Source: an uncultured Bacteroidota bacterium (lineage in GTDB: Bacteria > Bacteroidota > Bacteroidia > Chitinophagales > Chitinophagaceae). From it: a stretch of 64,000 bases of DNA. Within the stretch, counting starts at the first letter, position 1. Each line of letters opens with the position of its first letter. Made by a program: the position numbers and the translations under genes. Shown piece after piece: positions 12,738-19,900 of the stretch. The stretch lies in contig CAIOIZ010000156.1 in the NCBI GenBank assembly GCA_903858475.1, forward strand, positions 1 to 64,000, in the 5' to 3' direction. The notes beneath the pieces were generated by a model that saw nothing but the letters and a program-made list of their open reading frames with translations, was not told the origin of the DNA and ran no database searches.

Positions 12738-13160
12738 ATGGCAGTAAAAAGTTCCAAAGAAAAAAAGGCAACTCCTAAAAAGACTGCAGTATCCTCTACT
12801 GCTGTTACTAAAAGTGCATCAAAGACTAAGAAAGTAGTAGATGATGACGAGGATGATTTTGATGAAGAGGAAATAGTGAAGCCTTCCACGAAAGTGAAAG
12901 CCGCCACTAAAAAAAGCAAATCTGATGACGACGACGAGGAGGAGGATGATGTAGAAGTAGATGACGATTGGGAAAAACAAGAAGAAGAGGATTCTTGGGA
13001 TCCTGATTTTGATGAATTTGATATTCCTAAATCTAAAGGGAAAAAGGCTGTCGGAAAAAAATCAAAGGAAGAGGATGATTTAAAATTAGAGGATGATTTC
13101 AAAGATCTAGGTTTTGATGATTTAGATGGCGGTGGATTTGACGAGGAGGATGATTTTTAA
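12738..13160 (+). CDS. Low-complexity, intrinsically disordered Lys-then-Asp/Glu-rich protein
   Basis: 140 aa; Lys/Ser/Thr-rich N-terminus (KKATPKKTAV...SKTKK) then long acidic tracts; co-directional between purA and pabB with 15 nt to pabB. Confidence 0.75.
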   Translation: MAVKSSKEKKATPKKTAVSSTAVTKSASKTKKVVDDDEDDFDEEEIVKPSTKVKAATKKSKSDDDDEEEDDVEVDDDWEKQEEEDSWDPDFDEFDIPKSKGKKAVGKKSKEEDDLKLEDDFKDLGFDDLDGGGFDEEDDF

Positions 13161-13175
13161 GCAGTATATTTAGCT

Positions 13176-14477
13176 GTGAATAATTACAACCAATATGCTG
13201 TAAATAATTTTACTGCATTCAGAAATAAAATGTTGAACTGGGCCAACCAGTTCAACATTTTTTGTTTTTTAGACAACCAACAATATTCCACAGACGAAAA
13301 TGCCTTTGAATGTTTATTAGGAGTAGGTGCAAGGCATACAATTCATCTTCATTCGGGCAATGCTTTTGAATCCTTAAAAGCATTTCATAAAAAATATCCA
13401 GGTTGGCTATTTGGACACTTAGGCTATGATTTAAAAAATGAAATAGAAGCTGTCACATCAACAAATACGGATATCATTGGCTTTGAAGATGGCTGTTTTT
13501 TTGTTCCGGAAACCGTTATACAGGTTTTCAAAAAGCATGTAAGAATCATTAGCACCGGCAATGCAACGGCTTTATTTGATGAGATAAATAATTACAGTGA
13601 AAAGCATGCTGTTTCAAATCAGCCTCCTCCTATAGCTATTCAAAGTAGATTTTCCCAATTGGAATACATCGAAACCATCAAAGCTTTACTGGAACATATT
13701 CATGTTGGGGATTGCTATGAGATTAATTTTTGCCAGGAATTTTTTGCTGAAAATGTGTGGATTGACCCAATTCTTGTGTTTGATAAACTATGTACAATAT
13801 CTCCTAATCCCTTTGCTGCCCTTTATAAACTCAATGATAAATATTGCATTTGTGCCAGTCCAGAAAGATTCTTAAAGAAACAGGGATATAAATTAATATC
13901 TCAACCTATCAAGGGTACTAGTCCAAGGGACTTGCAAAACCGTACCAATGATGATTCACTGAAAAATCAATTATTCTGGAGTAGCAAGGAAAGATCAGAA
14001 AATGTAATGGTGGTAGACTTAGTAAGAAATGATTTGAGTAAAATTTGTACAAAGGGCAGTGTGAAAGTAGAGGAGCTTTTTGGTATTTATAGTTTTCCTC
14101 AGGTGCACCAAATGATAAGTACAGTGAGTGGCGAAATGCCCCCCGATTTGCATTGGGTGGAAGCCATTAGGGCTTGTTTCCCCATGGGCAGTATGACTGG
14201 CGCTCCAAAGAAAAAAGTAATGCAGTTGATAGAAAAATATGAAAAGTCAAAAAGAGGGTTGTTTTCTGGTGCTATTGGATATATTATGCCTTCTACCGAC
14301 GATTCGTTGCAATTCGACTTTGATTTTAATGTTGTAATAAGATCTTTATTGTACAATGCATCCGCTAAATCACTGTCCTACCAAACTGGCAGCGGCATTA
14401 CTTTTTACAGCGATCCCGAGCTAGAATATGAAGAATGCCAATGGAAGGGCGCTGCAATAAAAAAACTTTTCGAATAA
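13176..14477 (+). CDS. pabB: Chorismate-binding aminodeoxychorismate synthase component I
   Basis: GTG start; GDCYEINFCQEFFAE; ISQPIKGTSPRD; MVVDLVRNDLSKIC; FPMGSMTGAPKKKVMQLIEKYE; GSGITFYSDPELEYEEC. Confidence 0.9.
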   Translation: MNNYNQYAVNNFTAFRNKMLNWANQFNIFCFLDNQQYSTDENAFECLLGVGARHTIHLHSGNAFESLKAFHKKYPGWLFGHLGYDLKNEIEAVTSTNTDIIGFEDGCFFVPETVIQVFKKHVRIISTGNATALFDEINNYSEKHAVSNQPPPIAIQSRFSQLEYIETIKALLEHIHVGDCYEINFCQEFFAENVWIDPILVFDKLCTISPNPFAALYKLNDKYCICASPERFLKKQGYKLISQPIKGTSPRDLQNRTNDDSLKNQLFWSSKERSENVMVVDLVRNDLSKICTKGSVKVEELFGIYSFPQVHQMISTVSGEMPPDLHWVEAIRACFPMGSMTGAPKKKVMQLIEKYEKSKRGLFSGAIGYIMPSTDDSLQFDFDFNVVIRSLLYNASAKSLSYQTGSGITFYSDPELEYEECQWKGAAIKKLFE

Positions 14478-14502: not shown

Positions 14503-15030
14503 ATGAGGTATTCGACGATTAAAAAAAGGAATCTTATATTTAACAGAAATTTGCATATGCTAAGAGTAAGGATATTGATAATTGCAGTAATTATGTCTTC
14601 AGTTTCTCCACTGCAGGCACAAAAAGCTACAAGTAAGTTTGTAAGTAAGTATGCTGATTTGGCAATTGCATTAAAGGAAAAATGGGGTATACCAGTATCG
14701 ATTATTTTGGGAGTTTCTACATTAGAGTCGGGTAGTGGCACTAGTATTAATTGTAAGCAATTGAATAACTATTTTGGTGTAACAGGTAAAAATCATTTGA
14801 AACACCGTCGCACAATGTATAAGCAATATGCCAGTGCAGAAGAATCTTTTGATGATTTTTGTGGAATTATTTCTAGGAAGAAATATTATCCAAAATTAAA
14901 AAATAACATGAGTTATCAAACTTGGCTAGCTGCTATGAATCATGGAAATTATGCTGGAGCTAAAGATGTTTGGGTGTCAAGGGTGACCAATATTATTAAA
15001 AAACAAGGTCTTTATAAATACGATAAATAA
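14503..15030 (+). CDS. Glucosaminidase (GH73 / FlgJ-like) domain protein
   Basis: Signal peptide; IPVSIILGVSTLESGSGTS...NNYFGVTGKNH; ASAEESFDDFCGIISRKKYYPKL. Confidence 0.85.
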   Translation: MRYSTIKKRNLIFNRNLHMLRVRILIIAVIMSSVSPLQAQKATSKFVSKYADLAIALKEKWGIPVSIILGVSTLESGSGTSINCKQLNNYFGVTGKNHLKHRRTMYKQYASAEESFDDFCGIISRKKYYPKLKNNMSYQTWLAAMNHGNYAGAKDVWVSRVTNIIKKQGLYKYDK

Positions 15031-15039
15031 ATTCGGTAG

Positions 15040-16395
15040 ATGAATTATCAAAGGCAAGTCCTGCTCTTCACCCTCTTTTTTTTAGTTTCATTGATTGCTG
15101 CCACCGTGCTCTTTCATTTCTACCCTTCTTTGGCAGGATCTACTTTGCGGCCAGTTAATATTGTTTCCGAAATAGTTAAAGACAGTGCCAGCAATGGAAA
15201 GAAATCGGTTGTAACTAAAAATGGCAAAATAGTAAAAGGCAATATTATTGTAAAAGACTACTTAACGGAAAAATCCTTAATAAATTCCTCTGGTGATAAA
15301 TTTGCACTTCAACATTTTCTTAAAAAACTAGCTGCACTAAAAAAAGACAAATCACGGAAAGTTAGGATTGGATATTTTGGTGATTCATTTATAGAGGGTG
15401 ATTTAATTACACAAGACTTGCGGAAGCAATTACAAGATACCTTAGGAGGTGATGGGGTTGGGTTTGTGCCTATCCGGTCTATCACAGAAGGTTTCCGGCA
15501 AACTATTATACAGCATTCTTCTGGCGATTGGGAGGAAGTGAGTTTTAAATCTGATAATCATGCAAGCGCCCAACTTTTCTTGTCGGGGCATAAGTTTTTT
15601 CCAGGGAATAATAGTAGTGTTTCATTTCGAGCTAGCAACCAGCCCCACCTCGATCATTTTGTGCATGCACAAGTACTTTATGGCAAAGCCTCTAATGGAA
15701 ATAACACAACTGGATCTATCTCCATCAATAGCCAATCATATACCCTGCATGCAAATGATGTTTTCAATGTAGATGAAATTAATCTTGGAAATTGTCAAGC
15801 TGTGAATATGAGTGCAAGTCCCTCTGGCATTCCCATTTATGGTCTTTCTTTCGAAACCCCTGTAGGCATTATGGTGGATAATTTTTCTTTCAGGGGTATC
15901 AGTGGGGTAGAATTGGATAATTTTTCTGAAGACTATCTGAGGGCAATGCAAGCTAAAAGGCCCTATGATCTATTGGTATTTCAATATGGCCCGAATCTTT
16001 TATTTAAAGGAGAGCTAGTGGAATTTAAATGGTATCAGAAAAAAATGCTGCCTATATTACAAAAATTAAAAAAAGCATTTCCACAAACTAGTATACTATT
16101 GGTGTCTACTGCAGATAAAGGGTATAAGTATGCAGGAGCATGGCGCACTCAAAAAGGAGTGGAGCCCTTGGTAGATGTGCAATACGATATGGCCAACAAT
16201 GCTGGATTGGATTTTTTTAATTTATACAATGCTATGGGAGGTGAAAATTCAATGGTAAAATGGGCCACCGAATCGCCGACATTAGCAAATAAAGATTATA
16301 CACACGTGAATTTTAGAGGTGCAAAAAAGATAGCAGATATTATTTATAACGCGATAATGAAAGAGTTTGATGATTATCAAAAGCATGGGGATTAG
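15040..16395 (+). CDS. SGNH/GDSL-type hydrolase-like secreted protein
   Basis: Block I YFGDSFIEGD; GxN-like FQYGPN; block V DYTHVNFRGAKKIADII; N-terminal TM/signal. Confidence 0.8.
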   Translation: MNYQRQVLLFTLFFLVSLIAATVLFHFYPSLAGSTLRPVNIVSEIVKDSASNGKKSVVTKNGKIVKGNIIVKDYLTEKSLINSSGDKFALQHFLKKLAALKKDKSRKVRIGYFGDSFIEGDLITQDLRKQLQDTLGGDGVGFVPIRSITEGFRQTIIQHSSGDWEEVSFKSDNHASAQLFLSGHKFFPGNNSSVSFRASNQPHLDHFVHAQVLYGKASNGNNTTGSISINSQSYTLHANDVFNVDEINLGNCQAVNMSASPSGIPIYGLSFETPVGIMVDNFSFRGISGVELDNFSEDYLRAMQAKRPYDLLVFQYGPNLLFKGELVEFKWYQKKMLPILQKLKKAFPQTSILLVSTADKGYKYAGAWRTQKGVEPLVDVQYDMANNAGLDFFNLYNAMGGENSMVKWATESPTLANKDYTHVNFRGAKKIADIIYNAIMKEFDDYQKHGD

Positions 16396-17200
16396 TTTTT
16401 TATTTTCCCTTTCTACTTCTTGTAGTAGTATCAATGCGGATACTGACCAGTCGTCTTTGTTAAAAGCAAAGGAGGGTGGGGGTATTATATTAGCCAATGC
16501 AAAAACTAAAGAACTTCAATTAGGAAATACCATAGCCAATAGCAATGCACTGGTTGCACTAAAATCAGTGATTAATAAAAATGATGCCGGTTTTCGGGTT
16601 ATAAATGTTTTGCATATTGGAGATTCTCATATAAAGTCAGGGCTTTATTCAGAGCCATTTATGCAAAAGTTGAATAATTATTATGGGCAAAAAAGAAAGG
16701 GAAAACTTTTCTTCAACTTTCAATGGTTTTGCAAAATTGGCACTAAGTATTCTGATTATAATGAATTGGCTGAATTAGATATTCAGTTGGTTAAATCCAA
16801 CCCTAATCTGGTTATTATTTCTTTAGGCACCAACGATGCGTTTTCGGGGTCATCGCATTCGAACTTTTATGCAAAAATTGATCATCTTGTACAAAAGATC
16901 CATGATCTAGCACCTCATGCAGCAATACTAATTACCACTCCACCTGATGGGTTGAAAAACACAGGTGGTTATTTTGAAGCGCTTCCAGAAATGGCCAATG
17001 TAGTCAATACCATCACTAGGTATTGCAGTGATAAAAATATTGCCTGCTGGAATTTACACCAGATTATGGGAGGAACATATGCCATTAATGCCTGGTATTT
17101 ACAGAAATTGGCAGCGCCCGATCGGGTGCATTATAGTGCTAAGGGGTATGCGAAATTTGCACAATGGCTATTTGATGCTTTTGTAAAAGCAATGAACTAA
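16367..17200 (+). CDS. SGNH/GDSL-type hydrolase
   Basis: Block I HIGDSHIKSG; block III LGTNDAF; block V DRVHYSAKGYAKFAQWLF; overlaps the preceding ORF by 29 nt. Confidence 0.85.
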   Translation: MMIIKSMGISFLFSLSTSCSSINADTDQSSLLKAKEGGGIILANAKTKELQLGNTIANSNALVALKSVINKNDAGFRVINVLHIGDSHIKSGLYSEPFMQKLNNYYGQKRKGKLFFNFQWFCKIGTKYSDYNELAELDIQLVKSNPNLVIISLGTNDAFSGSSHSNFYAKIDHLVQKIHDLAPHAAILITTPPDGLKNTGGYFEALPEMANVVNTITRYCSDKNIACWNLHQIMGGTYAINAWYLQKLAAPDRVHYSAKGYAKFAQWLFDAFVKAMN

Positions 17201-17228
17201 ATATTTAAATTTAATAACGAGTTATTAT

Positions 17229-18710
17229 ATGGGTTCAATTGACTTTGAAAAAATTTGGGAAAGTATTCTGTATAATCCAAAAGACCCCCTGCTTTTTAAC
17301 AGTGGCTTTTTTATATGGTTTTTTGCCATTTTTATTATTACCTATTCTTTTACTGCAAAGCATCGGAATGCGAGGGTACTGACCTTTACGCTTTTTTCAT
17401 TGTATTTTTTTTATAAGGCTTGCGGTTGGTTTGTTGGCTTGGTATTGCTTTCTGCGGTGATTGATTTTATCCTTTCCAACAGCATTTATAAAGTGCAAAA
17501 AAAATCAACTAAAAAATTATTATTGATTTTTAGTGTAGTCATCAATTTGGGTTTGCTTTTCTATTTTAAATACACGAATTTTTTCATCGGCCTTATGAAT
17601 GATTTCAATGGCGGTCATATTGAGCCATTGAAATTGATTTTGCCAGTAGGTATATCCTTTTATACTTTTGAGAACCTGAGCTATACAGTGGATGTTTATA
17701 GAGGACATTTCAAGCCCGTTACCCGCTTTATTGATTATTTGTATTTTCTTTCCTTCTTCCCCAAGTTGATGATGGGACCCATTGTACGGGCAGCGGATTT
17801 TTTGCCACAACTCAACAAGCCCTATTTTGTAAGTAAACAGGACTTTGCCGAAGGGTTTTATCTCATATTTTCCGGGCTCTTCAAGAAAATAGTTATTTCC
17901 GATTTTATCAATGTGAATTTTGTCGGCTATGTTTTTGATGATCCTAGTAAACATGTGGGTTTAGAATGCTTATTGGCTATTTACGGATATGCATTGGTGA
18001 TATACTGCGATTTTTCAGGGTATTCAGATATGGCGAGAGGCATTGCCCGTTGGTGTGGGTTTAATATACCGCCCAATTTCGACTCCCCCTATCAAAGCAA
18101 ATCAATTACAGAGTTTTGGAGAAGATGGCATATTTCGCTTTCCAGTTGGCTGAGAGACTATCTGTATATTTCGCTGGGGGGCAACCGAAAAGGGAAAGTT
18201 AGGCAGTATGTCAATTTGTTTATTACAATGCTATTGGGAGGGTTCTGGCATGGAGCAAGCTGGAATTATATTCTTTGGGGTGGTATGCATGGAGCTGCCC
18301 TTACCGTGGATAAAATAAAACTTTTTATCGGCGAGAAATTAAAAATAAGTGGCCGTTCATTTTTTGCAAAAGCACTAGGGGTGTTCTTTACCTTTCATTT
18401 TGTTTGCTTTTGCTGGATATTTTTTCGGGCAGATAGTTTTGCTGATGCTGGTGCAATGATTCATCAATTGCTTTATAATTTTGATGGAGCAGTATGGAAA
18501 GAAATAGGCGCTAACTATTATGCAGTATTAATGATAATGTTGCTAGGATTCGTTTTGCATTTTGTTCCAAAGTCAATGGAGGAAAAAGTAAAGACGGGGC
18601 TTGCTAAATTACCCTTGGCAGGTTATGTAATGGTAGGGCTGCTACTGTTTTTTATATTCCTGCAGATGAAAACAGCAGAACCGGTAATGCCGGTCTATCT
18701 TCAATTCTAA
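17229..18710 (+). CDS. MBOAT family O-acyltransferase (AlgI/PatA-like)
   Basis: Polytopic; LPVGISFYTFENLSYTVDVYRG; FPKLMMGPIVRAADFLPQL; TEFWRRWHISLSSWLRDYLYISLGGN; GGFWHGASWNYILWGGMHG. Confidence 0.95.
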   Translation: MGSIDFEKIWESILYNPKDPLLFNSGFFIWFFAIFIITYSFTAKHRNARVLTFTLFSLYFFYKACGWFVGLVLLSAVIDFILSNSIYKVQKKSTKKLLLIFSVVINLGLLFYFKYTNFFIGLMNDFNGGHIEPLKLILPVGISFYTFENLSYTVDVYRGHFKPVTRFIDYLYFLSFFPKLMMGPIVRAADFLPQLNKPYFVSKQDFAEGFYLIFSGLFKKIVISDFINVNFVGYVFDDPSKHVGLECLLAIYGYALVIYCDFSGYSDMARGIARWCGFNIPPNFDSPYQSKSITEFWRRWHISLSSWLRDYLYISLGGNRKGKVRQYVNLFITMLLGGFWHGASWNYILWGGMHGAALTVDKIKLFIGEKLKISGRSFFAKALGVFFTFHFVCFCWIFFRADSFADAGAMIHQLLYNFDGAVWKEIGANYYAVLMIMLLGFVLHFVPKSMEEKVKTGLAKLPLAGYVMVGLLLFFIFLQMKTAEPVMPVYLQF

Positions 18711-18715
18711 TTGGA

Positions 18716-19900
18716 TTAGGATTTGCTCCTGCCTGTTTTTCTGCTATATATTTTTTTGGGACTGGGATATATAGTATGAGTGCTTTCGATATTGTTTTCA
18801 CTTAACAATAATTGAACACACTCATTTAGAATAACATATTTATTAGCAAGAAATAATTGCATTTTATCGTCCGGTAATCTCAAATCATAGTTTCCGTTAT
18901 TGCTCATCATGGCATCAAACTCGGGGTTATACCTGTTGAATTGGGCTATATCCATTGTTAGGTTTTTTGCAATTACCAGCGAATTGTATTTCCCTGAAAT
19001 AGATTGTGTAGCCGTTTGTATTTGTTCCTCTTCCGACAGTACAGGTTTAATATCGTAAGGATTGGCAGATGGTATGCCCGTATTAAAATTGCCAGCCAAT
19101 GCATTGTTATTTACGCTAGTAGTTACACCACCTCCACCTTCCATAATATAGTGGGTTGCAATAAAGCGCTTGACATAGGTTCTGCTTTCTTCTGGTAGAT
19201 AATATTGCAGTTCCCAAAAATTCCTACTACCACTTCTTTGCATGGCACTCATCACTCTACCTGGGCCTCCATTATATGCGGCCATCACCAATAACCAATC
19301 ATGCAATTGTTTGTATAGGCTTAATAGATACCGTGAAGCGGCATGGGTACTTTTAAAATAGTCGGTACGCTCGTCTGTATAATTGTTGATTACAAGATTG
19401 TATTGTCTTGCTGTGGCAGGCATAAATTGCCAAGGCCCGCCCGCACCTTTCGAAGAAACAGCACCTGTTTTTAAATTGGATTCAATAACTGCAATATATT
19501 TGAGCTCCTTGGGTAATCCATATTGCATCAATATACTTTCAATTAAATTGAAATAAGGTTGGCCCCATCCCTTCATATTTTCTAGGTATTTGCCATGGCT
19601 CTTCATATAGGATTCAATAAAGCCAGTTGCATTACTATTTACCTGACCCGAATAAGGCATTGTTGGGTTATAGGCGAAATTTGAAAAAAGATTTTTAAAA
19701 CCATACCGAGTTACTTGGCTGAAGTATTGAACTTTATCTTTTGAAGGAATAGTTTTGGTTTTAATGACGGAGTCAATTAACTGATCCTCCTTTGCTTCTT
19801 CCACTACAATACTGTCTTGCGGAATTTGTTGCATAGTTTCTACACTTGCTCTTGAACCGAGCAAACAAAGTGAAAAGGCTATTGTAAAAAAATACTTCAT
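18716..19900 (-). CDS. Lytic transglycosylase, MltD-like (SLT domain)
   Basis: AVIESNLKTGAVSSKGAGGPWQFMPATARQYNL; MAAYNGGPGRV; signal peptide. Confidence 0.92.
   Translation of the reverse strand: MKYFFTIAFSLCLLGSRASVETMQQIPQDSIVVEEAKEDQLIDSVIKTKTIPSKDKVQYFSQVTRYGFKNLFSNFAYNPTMPYSGQVNSNATGFIESYMKSHGKYLENMKGWGQPYFNLIESILMQYGLPKELKYIAVIESNLKTGAVSSKGAGGPWQFMPATARQYNLVINNYTDERTDYFKSTHAASRYLLSLYKQLHDWLLVMAAYNGGPGRVMSAMQRSGSRNFWELQYYLPEESRTYVKRFIATHYIMEGGGGVTTSVNNNALAGNFNTGIPSANPYDIKPVLSEEEQIQTATQSISGKYNSLVIAKNLTMDIAQFNRYNPEFDAMMSNNGNYDLRLPDDKMQLFLANKYVILNECVQLLLSENNIESTHTIYPSPKKIYSRKTGRSKS

Follow-up and report, generated by a model that had tools for sequence, protein, structure and literature searches.

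A likely O-acetyl-peptidoglycan cluster headed by a glucosaminidase gene in an uncultured Chitinophagaceae bacterium

Which polymer is modified when the genes of two SGNH proteins and a membrane-bound O-acyltransferase (MBOAT) lie directly behind that of a glucosaminidase, and which of the two SGNH proteins transfers the acyl group? The question is raised by a locus in a 64,000-nucleotide stretch of DNA (the window; positions 1 to 64,000 of contig CAIOIZ010000156.1, assembly GCA_903858475.1) from an uncultured Bacteroidota bacterium of the Chitinophagaceae. An earlier interpretation of the same DNA (the sequence-only reading) had described genes for a GH73 glucosaminidase, two SGNH proteins (SGNH1 and SGNH2) and an MBOAT on the + strand (14503-18710), followed by a convergent gene for an SLT-domain lytic transglycosylase (LT). 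Open reading frames (ORFs) and Pfam matches agreed with this layout. Judging from gene order, conservation, catalytic residues, an acyl-shuttle motif and the Ape1 fold, all of which were seen by sequence, the cluster is probably a Bacteroidota O-acetyl-peptidoglycan (OAP) cluster. The locus contained the following features.

14503..15030, + strand: GH73 glucosaminidase, secreted (PF01832, E 5.5e-20)
15040..16395, + strand: SGNH1, membrane-anchored Ape1-type SGNH protein (sequence match and fold to Ape1 4k3u)
15385..15387, + strand: SGNH1 catalytic Ser116 in GDSF (Asp419 and His422 at 16294-16305)
16367..17200, + strand: SGNH2, secreted Ape1-type SGNH protein (PF00657, E 1.4e-14; also PF13472)
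16625..16627, + strand: SGNH2 catalytic Ser81 in GDSH, counted from ATG 16385 (residue conservation)
17229..18710, + strand: MBOAT O-acyltransferase, PatA-like (PF03062, E 4.3e-31)
18690..18707, + strand: MBOAT C-terminal acyl-shuttle hexapeptide PVYLQF with Tyr490 (homologue comparison)
18716..19900, - strand: SLT-domain (MltD-like) transglycosylase (PF01464 SLT, E 5.6e-24), judged outside the cluster

The five ORFs had the same coordinates as in the sequence-only reading, with spacings of +9, -29, +28 and +5 nt. The GH73 signal peptide ended in PLQAQ, the Glu of the STLESG motif was present, and translation probably starts at ATG 14557, immediately ahead of the signal peptide. The 29-nt overlap of SGNH1 and SGNH2 assumes that SGNH2 begins with TTG; two ATG codons, at 16370 and 16385, are each as likely to be the start and give a smaller overlap.

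Conservation was assessed at two scales. An SGNH1 profile search of the sampled class genomes returned relatives in 153 of 295, and scanning named genomes brought up 505 relatives, of which the best 80, mostly from Chitinophaga, were retained. Genes were mapped over 140 loci, comprising the 80 named loci and one-per-family samples from 45 Bacteroidia families. In 34 of the 45 sampled families, a single strand carried SGNH1, SGNH2 and MBOAT in this order. Since the same order recurred across Bacteroidia, the first four genes were taken as more than a chance grouping, and the tight + strand cluster proposed earlier as a real unit. An additional family, f29, had a fused form, in which SGNH1 was followed by a single ORF of 932-974 aa joining SGNH2 to MBOAT; this was present in all nine f29 genomes found (examples, with ORFs of 933-968 aa, are L173:4913-7711 on the - strand, L227, L228, L230 and L231). 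Other loci were rearranged. SGNH2 lay on the opposite strand after MBOAT in 17/80 named loci. SGNH2 and MBOAT were linked, with SGNH1 elsewhere and mostly beside an LT gene, in f70 (6 genomes), f68-G200 and f19 (2 genomes), whereas SGNH1 and MBOAT stood without SGNH2 alongside in G002, G334, G335 and G336. G068 and G148 had SGNH1-SGNH2 without MBOAT, and in G171 MBOAT adjoined an SGNH2-LysM protein and SGNH1 was not found. At E 1e-20, 156 of the 295 class genomes had SGNH2 and 145 had SGNH1, with some cross-hits. In family f31 the cluster was immediately downstream of mreB, mreC, PBP2 and rodA. The genes 3' of MBOAT were diverse, and none next to the cluster was recognised as a polysaccharide synthesis gene.

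We further compared the two SGNH proteins with solved relatives. SGNH1 had no match in Pfam or NCBIfam. In a sequence search, its residues 79-439 aligned to the peptidoglycan O-acetylesterase Ape1 (4k3u) with E 1e-18, and the SGNH1 family profile reached this chain with E 4.6e-38 (134.5 bits). The corresponding values for SGNH2 were E 1.5e-17 (phmmer) and, for its family profile, E 3.1e-50 (174.7 bits). The AlphaFold model of SGNH1 (pLDDT 89, pTM 0.82) predicted a membrane helix at residues 3-27, a disordered flexible linker and an SGNH domain, interrupted near residues 156-272 by a beta-rich, CBM35-like insert. Its best fold match was Neisseria meningitidis Ape1 (4k3u; E 2e-26, TM-score 0.84 by target, full-length alignment), Campylobacter jejuni Ape1 was likewise among the best, and PatB (8tlb) was far behind in the fold search at E 1.4e-4. 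For the SGNH2 model (pLDDT 89), the best fold was again 4k3u (E 1.9e-10), ahead of PatB 7tjb (E 1.3e-7). The window SGNH2 consisted of the SGNH part only, lacking the beta-rich insert that is present in most of its relatives. Neither protein was closer to PatB than to Ape1 by sequence or fold, neither family profile reached a PatB chain at E 0.01, and the 50 listed fold hits of each protein included neither AlgJ nor AlgX. The comparison with PatB, Ape1 and AlgJ/AlgX that the sequence-only reading had suggested was thus answered in favor of Ape1 for both proteins.

The Ser-Asp-His triad and the oxyanion Asn of Ape1 were present in both window proteins. Among the SGNH1 homologues with a letter at the position, Ser was conserved in 136/136, Asp in 134/134, His in 134/134 and Asn319 in 135/135; the SGNH2 homologues kept Ser in 124/124, Asn150 in 124/124, Asp246 in 121/124 and His249 in 124/124. 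The block II Gly, which gives way to Ser or Asn in PatB, was kept in 134/136 SGNH1 and 123/124 SGNH2 sequences, its column having been placed by hidden Markov model alignment to Ape1 rather than by superposition. In the SGNH tree, the two Ape1 sequences sat on long branches between SGNH1 and SGNH2, a placement that marked neither protein as the Ape1 orthologue. LysM domains were found on some SGNH2 relatives. SGNH2-like proteins were also encoded at L211, L208 and L212-L214, with a LysM domain in those scanned with Pfam (L211, L208 and L212). The genes at L212-L214, from family f60, had no adjoining cluster MBOAT or SGNH1, and it is possible that they encode stand-alone peptidoglycan esterases.

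The MBOAT was matched by DltB structures (E 3e-28), and its NCBIfam DltB score of 179.5 bits was under the 375 cut-off. Histidines H301 and H341 were invariant among the homologues, and 121/123 of them ended in [PF]-[IV]-Y-[LF]-x-F. Compared with the FXYXXF motif of PatA, the window hexapeptide PVYLQF retained Tyr490 and the terminal Phe, with the first F changed to P here and in most homologues. The FXYXXF Tyr of C. jejuni PatA undergoes auto-acetylation, and such a peptide serves PatB as donor (PMC12148441). A Tyr shuttle step in the window MBOAT would be well founded by analogy. The same genome carried a second MBOAT (G000:C54, L037:9292-11844, - strand) that ended in FIYFQF and adjoined a protein of 348 aa, which contained a GSSR motif and was unmatched in Pfam, with an aldehyde dehydrogenase-MaoC gene alongside; together they probably form an MBOAT-SGNH pair distinct from the cluster. 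At L232, L233, L234 and L239, an SGNH protein of 267-281 aa (GDSM..DGAHP) was encoded upstream of a cluster-like MBOAT that had further genes downstream, a different MBOAT-SGNH system of f60 and f82. The f60 genomes had at first resembled MBOAT plus SGNH2 without SGNH1, and the MBOATs in three fetched loci adjoined other genes.

These features were set against known acylation systems. The OAP cluster was named by Weadge et al. in 2005, with the order ape1b-ape1c-pat in Bacteroides thetaiotaomicron, B. fragilis and Porphyromonas gingivalis (PMC1199599). The window cluster shared with it the order SGNH-SGNH-MBOAT, the clustering of an MBOAT with Ape-family SGNH genes, the DxxH motif, and the features of the two SGNH proteins, the first (ape1b) bearing GDS(H/F) and, unlike the second (ape1c), a beta-rich segment of ~100 residues, a match made by gene order and features and not by aligning Bacteroides sequences. 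It differed in that no glycosidase was reported in the Bacteroides and Porphyromonas clusters, and in that most SGNH2 relatives here have the segment, so its lack is lineage-specific. On the host side, Bacteroides peptidoglycan is O-acetylated where it was tested: 27-69% O-acetylation was measured in B. thetaiotaomicron and B. fragilis, both of which have the ape1b-ape1c-pat cluster (PMC1199599), and 56-66% O-acetylation of N-acetylmuramic acid (MurNAc) was reported for Bacteroides (PMC11382707).

With the PatA/PatB/Ape1 systems of Neisseria and Campylobacter (PMC12148441, PMC6174289), the window shared the C-terminal Tyr shuttle motif of the MBOAT, one membrane-anchored and one secreted SGNH protein, and the Ape1-type fold, here found in both. 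It differed in the order (SGNH-SGNH-MBOAT versus patA-patB-ape1) and in having no PatB-like SGNH in the cluster; PatB was judged absent from the cluster content and from the SGNH profiles not reaching PatB chains, with no direct PatB search of the genome. The DltB/DltD/DltX system of teichoic acid D-alanylation likewise has the MBOAT core and the Tyr shuttle hexapeptide, but the window peptide is within the MBOAT instead of on DltX, and the cluster lacked carrier-protein genes. An OatA-like fusion of an AT3 domain to an SGNH domain was not found: the two AT3 frames of the genome were located elsewhere and, at 380 and 376 aa, were too short to hold a fused SGNH domain, so these proteins are not of the OatA type.

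The alginate proteins AlgI, AlgJ and AlgX also combine one MBOAT with two SGNH proteins, and MBOAT-SGNH pairs acylate polysaccharide in alginate and cellulose systems. On such a reading the module would acylate exopolysaccharide, capsule or lipopolysaccharide instead of peptidoglycan, and the genome does have a second, separate MBOAT-SGNH pair. We regard it as most improbable: both SGNH proteins have the Ape1 fold, with AlgJ and AlgX absent from their 50 listed fold hits, no alginate or other polysaccharide synthesis genes were recognised beside the cluster, and the genes it is linked to are those of GH73, LT and the mre-PBP2-rodA operon. An alginate- or exopolysaccharide-like target was rejected on these grounds. 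Where the sequence-only reading had proposed a peptidoglycan or exopolysaccharide O-acylation module, the peptidoglycan half, with its PatA-like MBOAT and two catalytically intact SGNH proteins, was retained and the exopolysaccharide half was dropped.

The linkage to peptidoglycan glycosidases extended well beyond the window. GH73 was immediately upstream of SGNH1 in 75 of the 80 related named loci. In the sampled families, a peptidoglycan glycosidase occupied this position in 15/45, GH73 in 5 (f1, f39, f28, f40 and f20) and an SLT-domain enzyme in 10 (f22, f26, f29, f30, f41, f48, f51, f69, f70 and f79); many of the LTs carried LysM domains. GH73 and SLT enzymes have two unrelated folds. Because the SLT-linked cases formed a single clade in the SGNH1 tree, the families cannot be counted as independent: unrelated enzymes were recruited at least twice, not fifteen times. 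Adjacency by chance was unlikely, because the window genome itself held only two GH73 genes and one SLT gene above curated cut-offs. Of the hydrolases that the sequence-only reading had packed with the module, GH73 is in the unit and the convergent transglycosylase is outside it.

Together, the class-wide core, the upstream glycosidase, the mre-PBP2-rodA linkage in f31, the LysM domains, Ape1 as the best solved relative of both SGNH proteins by sequence and fold, and the Tyr hexapeptide support the OAP assignment. In the mechanism we propose, one Ape1-type SGNH protein would accept acetyl on its catalytic Ser and hand it on to the C6-OH of MurNAc, and the other would strip the acetyl, opening the glycan to cleaving enzymes such as the co-encoded GH73; the substrate, acetyl as the acyl group, the direction of each SGNH protein and the coupling to GH73 are predicted. 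More generally, we lean narrowly toward Bacteroidota peptidoglycan O-acetylation proceeding without PatB, with an Ape1-fold SGNH protein as the transferase of the MBOAT, its paralogue as the esterase, and an operon-borne glycan cleaver (GH73 or LT), such that marking, unmarking and cutting would be made together.

Dissecting the roles of the two SGNH proteins gave a more divided picture. For the window we provisionally give the transferase role, as partner of the MBOAT, to the membrane-anchored SGNH1 and the esterase role to the secreted SGNH2, an assignment with about an even chance of being correct. A strong N-terminal membrane segment was predicted in 97% of SGNH1 versus 45% of SGNH2 sequences, and SGNH1 and MBOAT were adjacent in 20/80 related loci in which SGNH2 was inverted or gone from its place; both favor SGNH1. 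MBOAT tree distances tracked SGNH1 (partial r 0.82) and not SGNH2 (0.06), with a bootstrap difference of 0.55-0.90. Several points weighed against our view. The co-evolution signal derived from the GH73-bearing lineages and vanished without them. SGNH2 was the protein fused to MBOAT throughout f29, and the one that stayed with MBOAT in f70, f68-G200 and f19, where SGNH1 was mostly with an LT. SGNH1 has the Ape1-like, CBM35-like insert and adjoins glycosidases, as expected of an esterase; an esterase beside glycosidases is plausible because N. meningitidis has an LtgA-Ape1 complex (PMC7083599). The replaced block II Gly of PatB was in neither protein, and the acyl group and polymer in the window organism are predicted from genes alone.

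The same fusions and split loci, together with the glycosidases next to SGNH1 in 15/45 families and the MBOAT of G171 beside an SGNH2-LysM protein, would be expected if the roles were reversed, with SGNH2 as the transferase partner and SGNH1 as an esterase acting with GH73 or LT. The window SGNH2 also lacks the CBM-like insert, like PatB, and its model came closer to PatB than did that of SGNH1 (the 7tjb and 8tlb matches above). However, most SGNH2 proteins keep the Ape1 motifs GDSH, G[VI]NGA, GTNEA and DxxHF, SGNH2 outscored SGNH1 against Ape1, it is frequently secreted without an anchor, and it was inverted, moved or missing in 20/80 related loci; moreover, neighbouring genes fuse readily, so fusion need not imply partnership. 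We consider the reversed roles possible, though doubtful. The near-strict co-occurrence of the two proteins in the class genomes, with the cross-hits noted above, and their intact catalytic residues would also fit a transfer needing both, as a relay or at two sites (compare AlgJ and AlgX), with the esterase elsewhere. This is rather unlikely: Ape1, which both resemble, is a hydrolase, the presence of two SGNH proteins per MBOAT is already explained by PatA/PatB/Ape1 clusters, and in some lineages one of the two is missing from the vicinity of MBOAT.

The sequence-only reading had counted the convergent transglycosylase as a fifth member of the module. Its 5-nt convergent spacing was preserved in three loci (L025, L028 and L039), and in G148 (f75) a related MBOAT was also found by gatA and an SLT-LysM gene, a proximity that may be coincidence. 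The LT gene lies on the strand opposite the cluster, its adjacency to the cluster was confined to these closest relatives, and most related loci had no LT downstream of MBOAT. Instead, gatA and LT stood side by side on one strand in 11/11 congeneric genomes having both genes. Nine of these lacked the cluster (G004, G006, G008, G011, G012, G013, G016, G018 and G022), and G009 and G015 kept the pair with the cluster on another contig. Because the gatA-LT pair was kept with or without the cluster, LT was rejected as a member that travels with the cluster and considered a neighbour, and a functional role as fifth member is very unlikely. Of the five-gene neighbourhood whose conservation had been proposed as a check, the three-gene core and, less widely, the upstream glycosidase recurred across families and the LT adjacency did not. 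At L241 (G148:C11), the PatA-like MBOAT adjoined gatA and the SLT-LysM gene as in the window, with SGNH1-SGNH2 elsewhere.

Two observations were made upstream of the cluster. A perfect inverted repeat of 15 bp, with a T-run behind it (13227-13261, + strand), lay within the start of a pabB-like ORF (13176-14477), and a 140-aa acidic low-complexity protein with no match in Pfam or NCBIfam was encoded between the purA and pabB-like genes (12738-13160, + strand).

The cluster had been put forward as an under-described system, which does not hold for its core, known from Bacteroides and Porphyromonas since 2005 (PMC1199599). Because the core matches that OAP cluster and Bacteroides peptidoglycan is heavily O-acetylated, the kind of system is known. 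The 2005 paper called both SGNH proteins of the cluster esterases (PMC1199599), a view that predates the demonstration that PatB, which it had named Ape2, acts as a transferase (PMC6174289). The Bacteroidetes clusters lack ape2, and the transferase role therefore falls to no named gene. A 2024 review assigned Pat enzymes to Pseudomonadota and Campylobacterota only, and a 2018 mechanistic review did not mention Bacteroides; we found no paper settling which SGNH protein transfers, in a literature search that mostly excluded subscription papers. As far as we found, the class-wide conservation, the glycosidase link, the split loci and the fusion of SGNH2 to MBOAT throughout a family appear new. 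Few reported peptidoglycans are as heavily O-acetylated as that of Bacteroides, and this cluster is the obvious candidate source. A cluster without a recognisable PatB poses the question of how one SGNH fold turns transferase or hydrolase, which the natural SGNH2-MBOAT fusions and split loci make testable. How dominant gut bacteria resist lysozyme and release muropeptides hinges on the answer.

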